A stretch of 64,000 nt of DNA from Clostridiales bacterium. GTDB taxonomy: Bacteria > Bacillota > Clostridia > Christensenellales > Borkfalkiaceae. The position numbers and the translations under genes were made by a program. The stretch covers positions 1 to 64,000 of the forward strand of contig SVHZ01000003.1 of the NCBI GenBank assembly GCA_015055525.1, given 5' to 3'. Under the pieces are notes generated by a model that worked only from the letters and a program-made list of their open reading frames with translations, was not told the DNA's origin and ran no database searches. Shown here piece after piece: positions 11,122 to 56,114 of this stretch (its first letter is position 1; each line of letters begins with the position of its first letter).

Positions 11122-11230
11122 ATAATAAAGCGGACGCGCCCTCAAACCGCAACGACTTCTATCGTTTTCGTTCAAGGACGACATCCCATTCCTTGACACT
11201 TAACGCTATCGGGCTACTCTTTTTTTTATT
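11122..11230 (-). ncRNA. THF (folate) riboswitch
   Basis: On the minus strand the leader matches the THF-I riboswitch consensus: GAGTAG near the 5' end, GCGTTAAGTGT, the hallmark GGAATGGGATGTCGTCC, then GAACGAAAACGATAG and closing GCGTCCGC. An AT-rich P1 (AATAAA... with ...CTTTATTATT) closes it. Downstream, ACCTC (11106-11110) can pair with GAGGT (11096-11100), hiding the Shine-Dalgarno sequence at 11097-11102, so regulation is probably at translation initiation. Confidence 0.95.
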
Positions 11231-42470: not shown

Positions 42471-42570
42471 TAGTGATATTTTTTGACTGCGTCAAAAAGT
42501 GATATTCGCCTTTCGGCAAGATATATTTTACGCTTTGCGTAAAGTTATATTTTTTGTTTTCAACAAAAAG
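42471..42570. repeat. Array of four different hairpins with GATAT-like linkers
   Basis: Four adjacent small inverted repeats with unrelated stems: TTTTTGAC-TGC-GTCAAAAA (42480-42498); GCC-TTTC-GGC with a T/A pair outside (42505-42519); TTTACGC-TTT-GCGTAAA (42527-42543); TTTTTGTT-TTC-AACAAAAA (42551-42569). Between them recur linkers of one type: GTGATAT, GATATAT, GTTATAT. The array lies 18 nt upstream of the clpX start codon, in its leader or promoter region. Confidence 0.75.
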
Positions 42571-42638
42571 TTGTGGATAAAATCTATATATAATTTGTTT
42601 AGCTTAACTCAAAGCCTAGTTAAACACGTATTTTAAGA

Positions 42639-42749
42639 CGTTAGAAGCGAGTTAGACGAGGCACAAGATTTTTTAACGCTGAGATAGACCTTGTCGGTCA
42701 TCGAAGTGTTAAAAAGTCGCAGTAACAAAGTATAACGACGCTTATAACG
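42639..42749. repeat. 111-bp nested inverted-repeat element between clpP and clpX
   Basis: Three nested helices: outer CGTTAGAAGCGAGTTAGAC (42639-42657) with GTATAACGACGCTTATAACG (42730-42749), 16 of 19 pairs; middle 42667-42685 with 42700-42718, 17 of 19 pairs; inner GACC/GGTC (42687-42690/42696-42699). Two of the non-Watson-Crick positions in the middle helix are G-U pairs only if the + strand is transcribed. It contains no reading frame of note. Possible identities are a MITE-like repeat or a structured RNA. Confidence 0.65.
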
Positions 42750-42757
42750 GATTAAAA

Positions 42758-43339
42758 TTAGCGATTGTAATAGATTTTATCAATTAACCCGTACTCAAGC
42801 GCATCTTCAGCGGATAAGTAGTTATCACGATCAGTGTCCTTTTCCACTTGCTTGATAGACTTACCTGTGTTTTCAGATAAAATCTTGTTGAGTTTATCTT
42901 TAATCTTTAAGATATGGTCGGCTTGAATTTTAATATCGCTCGCTTGACCTTGAGCGCCACCTAAAGGTTGATGAATCATAATTTCGCTGTTGGGAAGAGC
43001 AAATCTCTTTCCCTTTTTACCGCTTGAAAGAAGGAAAGCGCCCATCGATGCAGCCATACCGATACAAATAGTAGAAACGTCACACTTAATATAATTCATA
43101 GTATCATAAATTGCAAGACCTGCGGTAACCGAACCACCCGGGCTATTGATATATAAACAAATATCTTTATCGGGATCTTTTGCCTCAAGGTAGATAAGTT
43201 CTGCAACTATAGTGTTTGCAGTTGCATCGTCAATCTCCCCTGAAAGCATTATAATTCTATCTTCAAGTAATCTTGAATAAATATCGTAGGAACGTTCACC
43301 TTTGTTGGTTTGTTCCACAACCATAGGTATTAAAGCCAT
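42758..43339 (-). CDS. clpP: ATP-dependent Clp protease proteolytic subunit ClpP
   Basis: A 193-residue serine peptidase forming the tetradecameric ClpP barrel. The catalytic triad is Ser in [12 protein letters not shown], His in IMIHQPLGG and Asp in the following helix region ([16 protein letters not shown]). The N-terminal [23 protein letters not shown]-like segment (split here as VEQT and SYDIYSRLL) fits the axial loops. It follows tig by 31 nt, the conserved tig-clpP-clpX order. Confidence 0.98.
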
Positions 43340-55821: not shown

Positions 55822-55835
55822 AATACTACTGCGAT

Positions 55836-56114
55836 AGACGGGGAGTTAGCGGTGCCCTGTAACTTGCAATCCGCTATAGCAAGGTTGAACGTCTTCCGCG
55901 GTCTTTGTTATGGAAGGCTGGGCTTTGAAAGAAACGTTGACGTTAAGGTCTTATGCAACGGCAACCCGTGAACCGTGTCAGGATAGGAATATAGCAGCAC
56001 TAAGCGGTATAGTCGTGTGCCATAAGGTAGCTTTGACTGAGTTTTGATTGAAGTTTTCGCTTCGGTTTCAAATATCAGAGTTGATTCGCAGTATTTAGAT
56101 ATTTCGGCTCCGTT
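55836..56114 (+). ncRNA. ffs: Signal recognition particle RNA, large bacterial type
   Basis: About 279 nt. The Alu-domain part AGTTAGCGGTGCCCTGTAA followed by GCAATCCGCTATAGCA matches Bacillus scRNA; the S-domain has CCGTGAACCGTGTCAGG, a GGAA tetraloop and AGCAGCACTAAGC. Ends were placed by pairing of ACGGGGAG near the 5' end with CTCCGT near 56108-56113, so they are approximate. With Ffh it targets nascent membrane proteins to SecYEG. The three base pairs beside the tetraloop are AUA/UAU instead of UCC/GGA. Confidence 0.95.

Follow-up and report, generated by a model that had tools for sequence, protein, structure and literature searches.

Between clpP and clpX lies a copy of a quasi-palindrome of about 130 bp, larger and different in kind from the 111-bp nested inverted repeat of the preliminary description. 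That it belongs to a multicopy, mobile family with rule-bound behavior is well supported. We consider it probable, though far from certain, that this is a non-autonomous family of mobile palindromes, MITE-like in size, whose functional form would be a single folded DNA strand. The exact fit to stop codons, the lock to one replication strand and the mobility were all missed in the first reading.

The window analyzed is the 64,000-nucleotide stretch at positions 1-64,000 of contig SVHZ01000003.1 (GCA_015055525.1). Its genome, G000, comprises 1.53 Mb in 53 contigs. In clp orientation, the full unit runs from one base past the clpP TAA to about 42606 (Table 1). The inverted repeats are real and far beyond chance. 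Either strand of the gap folds far better than shuffled sequence: the element region reaches -49.7 kcal/mol on the + strand (z = -6.2) and -41.0 kcal/mol on the - strand (z = -3.9), and none of 200 shuffled sequences folded as well. The boundaries first assigned, 42639-42749, are too narrow. From these ends, the 19-nt outer arms pair at only 11 positions without gaps, so the 16 of 19 originally given requires a bulge. The middle arms are present, with ungapped pairing at 15 of 19 positions in place of the proposed 17, and the GACC/GGTC core is present.

Table 1. Features of the hairpin unit between clpP and clpX, in window coordinates.
Feature	Position	Strand	Evidence
Complete hairpin unit, clp orientation, TTTTAATCCGTTATAAGC...GCTTCTAACGTCTTAAAAT	42630..42758	-	Model R1 match 42632-42756, 140 bits, E 9.8e-38
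Left basal arm, clp orientation, abuts clpP stop codon	42739..42758	-	17/20 pairing with right basal arm
Right basal arm, clp orientation	42630..42649	-	17/20 pairing with left basal arm
Inner hairpin	42667..42718	-	Arms 42667-42685 and 42700-42718, 15/19 paired ungapped; predicted folds
GACC/GGTC core	42687-42690 / 42696-42699	-	Invariant in 25-copy alignment
Downstream tail, clp orientation, ACGTGTTTAACTAGGCTTTGAGTT, about 26 bp	42606..42629	-	BLAST matches span window 42606-42760
clpP stop codon TAA, insertion point, native C-terminus retained	42758-42760	-	Ortholog comparison

Flank comparison showed that the tail is common to some copies, yet it varies even where the cores are about 95% identical. 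In an Rfam scan of the window, the element matches no family above the gathering score. The only matches above that score are a bacterial large SRP RNA at 55829-56091 (+) and a THF riboswitch at 11126-11223 (-). The hairpin array said to adjoin the element does so. At about 42473-42600, starting near TTATCCACAAC, it consists of short hairpins separated by ATATMAC-like spacers and is distinct from the element. Similar arrays at loci L020, L024 and L132, the last being the clpP-clpX gap of genome G007, mark it as a second repeat family.

The element is present in many copies. BLAST found 74 matches in G000, and a covariance model built from 25 copies found 88, of which 67 are near-complete. The stems covary strongly, with 16 of 34 pairs doubly compensated in one genome. 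The preliminary description would have been undermined by a single copy with independently diverging arms; since the element is multicopy, this is not the case. The same model gave between at least 5 and at least 100 matches per genome in nine genomes of the genus. Matches occur in 82 of 121 genomes sampled across the family, a group of uncultured gut Clostridia, and in 15 of 18 genera. Only weaker matches were found outside the family in the same order. Among the matches listed, a pattern scan of named genomes returned Clostridia/Clostridiales MAGs only, and those with a named source came from the ruminant gut. No phage or plasmid record matched the element, and an origin from either was rejected on this ground. 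A keyword search of the open literature found no account of such a hairpin family in Clostridia, which is weak evidence of absence. One family relative carries four tandem copies with a spacing of about 129 bp between opposite-strand genes (L178:1501-2010).

Comparison with orthologs indicated that the element inserts at gene ends. At clpP-clpX it is absent from eight genus relatives, where a short gap comes after the clpP stop, or the short-hairpin array in the case of G007. At clpP and 18 further gene ends with orthologs, 19 in all, we set the element-bearing species against close ones. Presence is polymorphic, always exactly at the native stop codon: for most of these ends at least one relative has no element, and other relatives have one at that same stop. 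Nearly every case keeps the native C-terminus. In intergenic sequence that could be aligned, several loci still have the terminator of the host downstream of the element. Because relatives lack the element and the terminator is retained, these are insertions at the stop codon and not replaced terminators. An intrinsic terminator was rejected together with terminator replacement, since orthologous terminators remain downstream. In place of a GC-rich stem followed by a T-run, the hairpin ends in ...CTTAAAA. At six loci (L108, L100, L104, L115, L120 and L367), a terminator module of the form TTTTAAGACATAAAAAAGC-stem-GCTTTTTTTATTCCG recurs directly after stops. An element with the left end TTTATTCCG often follows it, and in genome G002 the module occurs without an element.

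Among 193 copies, 176 could be classified by their upstream gene, which has the orientation of the copy in 168. Of the 111 copies placed near a stop, 94 have their start within -15 to +4 nt of a stop codon in the same orientation. These junction stops are TAA in 93 cases and TAG in one, against a background of 179 TAA, 22 TGA and 8 TAG in 209 genes. Most of the copies located elsewhere come after the T-run of a terminator or after an earlier copy. The left junction is exact at TAA, be it in stop codons, post-terminator tails or the ends of earlier copies, whereas the right side is sloppy. No target duplication was found, as identical 3-mers made up at most 10% across 36 boundary choices. In some genes the stop codon comes from the element, as TTTTAA or TTATAA, and the stem is then closed at its base by coding bases of the host. 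The right arm tracks the host coding base, being complementary at position 1 in 7 of 8 non-T cases. At the end of a gene that is probably queA, as judged from its C-terminal sequence (L112 and L173), two genomes differ by codon changes and the opposite arm compensates.

The orientation of the copies is tied to replication. In G000, one of the 67 near-complete copies disagrees with the other copies on its contig, and about 98% have leading-strand orientation. Of the genes in the sampled stretches, 198 point in the element direction and 59 against it (77% with). The discordant copy, L114:1579-1702 (G000:C3:38078), is on the opposite strand and close to a normally oriented copy. The element strand follows GC skew. 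On a 217-kb contig from another genus (G031:C4), it flips between 86 and 146 kb, coinciding with the cumulative GC skew minimum at about 130-140 kb. Copies change orientation at the replication origin. As the element strand follows the skew and flips at its minimum, the gene-sense orientation runs with the fork, which makes the antisense strand the template for leading-strand synthesis.

These data bear on whether the element is an ordinary MITE of a DDE transposase since lost, its strand and stop-codon pattern arising from selection only. Its size, terminal inverted repeats and intergenic location fit, and MITE-like repeats are known in Firmicutes (PMC3049150). The missing target duplication, by which a MITE that duplicates its target was rejected, and the exact left junction at TAA argue against it, as does a strand bias far above the 61-63% of the pneumococcal BOX, RUP and SPRITE repeats (PMC3049150). 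We regard this origin as quite improbable.

Several observations suggest which strand is functional. The preliminary description had tentatively placed the functional molecule, if any, antisense to the clp operon because two mismatches become G-U pairs in that strand. The choice of strand is supported, but the argument for it fails. Across copies, antisense G·T numbers 89 and sense G·T 64, near the expectation from base composition, and neither strand has a G-U excess. Watson-Crick pairs occupy 88.5% of 3,720 cells in the helices, a count biased towards pairing since the covariance model derives from the same copies. The remaining sense-strand pairs are the 64 G·T, 89-90 A·C and 275 other mismatches. 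Functional RNA helices normally show a wobble excess, and G-U is not enriched over A-C here. At positions 6, 7, 13 and 25, conserved mismatches are T·C or C·T in the sense strand and G·A in the antisense strand. Together these positions give 435 G·A in antisense and 6 in sense, where base composition would give about 2:1. A one-base asymmetry of the hairpin is also conserved. The antisense strand is the more stable in 180 of 184 copies folded as DNA and in 174 of 184 folded as RNA. With the G-U argument gone, and the fold and the G·A mismatches favoring the antisense strand, a DNA strand is a likelier functional molecule than an antisense RNA. Together, the lack of G-U excess, the conserved antisense G·A and the predicted folds favor folded antisense single-stranded DNA, and not RNA, as the probable functional form.

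The same evidence weighs on a host-useful RNA hairpin in the 3’ untranslated region, which would stabilize or process the mRNA or end transcription, and spread by recombination. Such a hairpin would explain the position directly past stop codons in the orientation of the gene, the fold is stable as RNA too, and the queA end shows vertical maintenance with compensation. The mRNA strand is, however, the one that folds worse in 174 of 184 copies, its conserved T·C mismatches are destabilizing, and G-U excess is lacking in both strands. Intrinsic terminators are still present downstream, the element is confined to leading-strand genes, and its presence is highly polymorphic. This explanation is unlikely.

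Pairing could also be kept mainly by replication template switching, with no structure being recognized. Template-switch repair of quasi-palindromes creates and repairs hairpins, and can yield compensatory changes without selection (PMC8794818). The strand asymmetry and the copying of host bases beside the stop codon by the right arm agree with this. Positions 6, 7, 13 and 25 nevertheless stay G·A on one strand instead of being erased, and dispersal to new genes is left unexplained. As the main explanation, template switching has little probability, yet the process can also keep arms matched, which qualifies the folded-DNA reading.

The sites record a history of turnover. In G000, 25 right arms lack a left partner and 11 left arms lack a right one, several of the latter at contig ends. 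A complete copy precedes 15 of the orphan right arms and follows 2 of them. Those downstream of a complete copy are older copies that have lost their left half. Near-identical cores carry different tails and some copies are mosaic, which suggests that recombination between copies may occur as well as new insertion. In the mosaics at L012, L008:1633-1747 and L016/L095, the left arm is older and the core and right arm are recent, which suggests gene conversion between copies.

We searched for an enzyme that could move the element. The genus assemblies are drafts of 83-94% completeness, so single gene absences are not final. A Y1 HUH transposase (PF01797; RAYT/TnpA) was found in none of the nine genus genomes, with control matches in five genomes. 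The integron integrase model TIGR02249 gave nothing over its cut-off in the nine genomes; below it were only Xer-like tyrosine recombinases, as in all 14 controls. A search for IS91-like Y2 transposases gave no match in the genus and none in the controls either. The analysis came across no excision product, no donor and no autonomous copy.

Reverse transcriptase (PF00078, RVT_1) is absent from G000 and present only in G001 among the nine genus genomes. This concerns a short retroelement whose RNA would be copied in at RNA 3’ ends (terminator tails and stop codons), as in the targeting of group IIC introns. Several copies that begin right after terminator T-runs, the orphan half copies in tandem and the leading-strand lock would suit it. 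But seven of the other eight genus genomes share the absence in G000 despite 5-100 copies each, G-U is not tolerated, and the loss affects the left half of older copies and not a variable end of recent insertions. Such an origin was rejected for want of a reverse transcriptase in G000, and we consider it very unlikely.

A family of mobile palindromes remains our preferred reading. Points against it include the negative Y1 and integron integrase searches, the lack of any excision product, donor or autonomous copy among what was seen, the bias of the covariance model towards pairing, the compensatory changes that template switching can make without selection, and a strand preference opposite to that of IS200/IS605. 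Beyond the folded DNA strand, we infer the mechanism. A structure-specific single-strand nuclease or recombinase would recognize the folded antisense strand and join it at TAA. A copy facing the other way either could not be made, or would be lost because it would expose the better-folding strand on the lagging-strand template. Placement after the stop of a leading-strand gene would be tolerated because only the 3’ untranslated region lengthens, with the protein and the host terminator untouched. Further copies would reach occupied sites by recombination between copies, as the mosaic arms may reflect. Tentatively, this could be a new class of single-stranded DNA mobility, parallel to attC in function and independent in origin, in which a putative recombinase captures the folded antisense strand of about 130 nt, joins it at TAA behind leading-strand genes and has the basal stem rebuilt to the host's last codons. 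We hold this broader proposal as possible but doubtful.

Mobile repeats usually lie dispersed between genes, in either orientation. This family combines two rules, exact placement at stop codons and a fixed direction relative to replication, and bears marks of selection on the fold of one strand. It raises the testable questions of which enzyme recombines the element and whether recombination of attC-like folded strands evolved more than once. Gene annotation is affected because the element can supply a host gene's stop codon, and assembly because several G000 contigs end inside copies matched by BLAST.

We compared the element with known systems. Like group IIC introns, some copies lie directly behind terminator stem-loops, but the element is not ribozyme-sized and G000 has no reverse transcriptase. 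ERIC (127 bp), RUP, BOX and SPRITE are likewise small interspersed MITE-like palindromic repeats of similar size. BOX, RUP and SPRITE mirror the coding bias, and RUP and BOX have target duplications (PMC3049150); exact stop-codon placement is unreported for these repeats in the literature compared here.

REP/REPIN with RAYT and IS200/IS605 share short high-copy palindromes near gene ends without target duplication. Here too a short fixed motif is adjacent, TAA at the left junction. Hairpins, the involvement of single strands and a coupling to replication are further features in common with IS200/IS605 and REP (PMC6006769, PMC2817692). IS200/IS605 transposition favors the lagging-strand template (PMC6006769), whereas the better-folding strand of our element is on the leading-strand template. 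It also forms one hairpin of about 130 bp, compared to 20-40 bp for REPs. A Y1-driven REP/IS605 system was rejected, as no Y1 was found in the nine draft genomes of the genus.

The attC site of integrons consists of inverse-core and core boxes, RYYYAAC ... GTTRRRY, and is recombined by the integron integrase IntI. None of 186 copies contains these boxes on either strand, and membership was rejected without them and without an integron integrase over the cut-off. Unlike attC, the element is scattered at housekeeping genes in conserved neighborhoods, and it moves itself instead of gene cassettes. Like attC, it conserves structure over sequence, has one strand that preferentially folds, forms tandem runs and is placed at gene ends. 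The folding strand of attC is on the leading-strand template in 25 of 30 sedentary chromosomal integrons (PMC5371416), and so is the better-folding strand of nearly all copies here. On the best reading, the new family would work like an integron attC or a REP site, yet it is neither, and its stop-codon placement and fixed direction point to a new way of moving folded single-stranded DNA.
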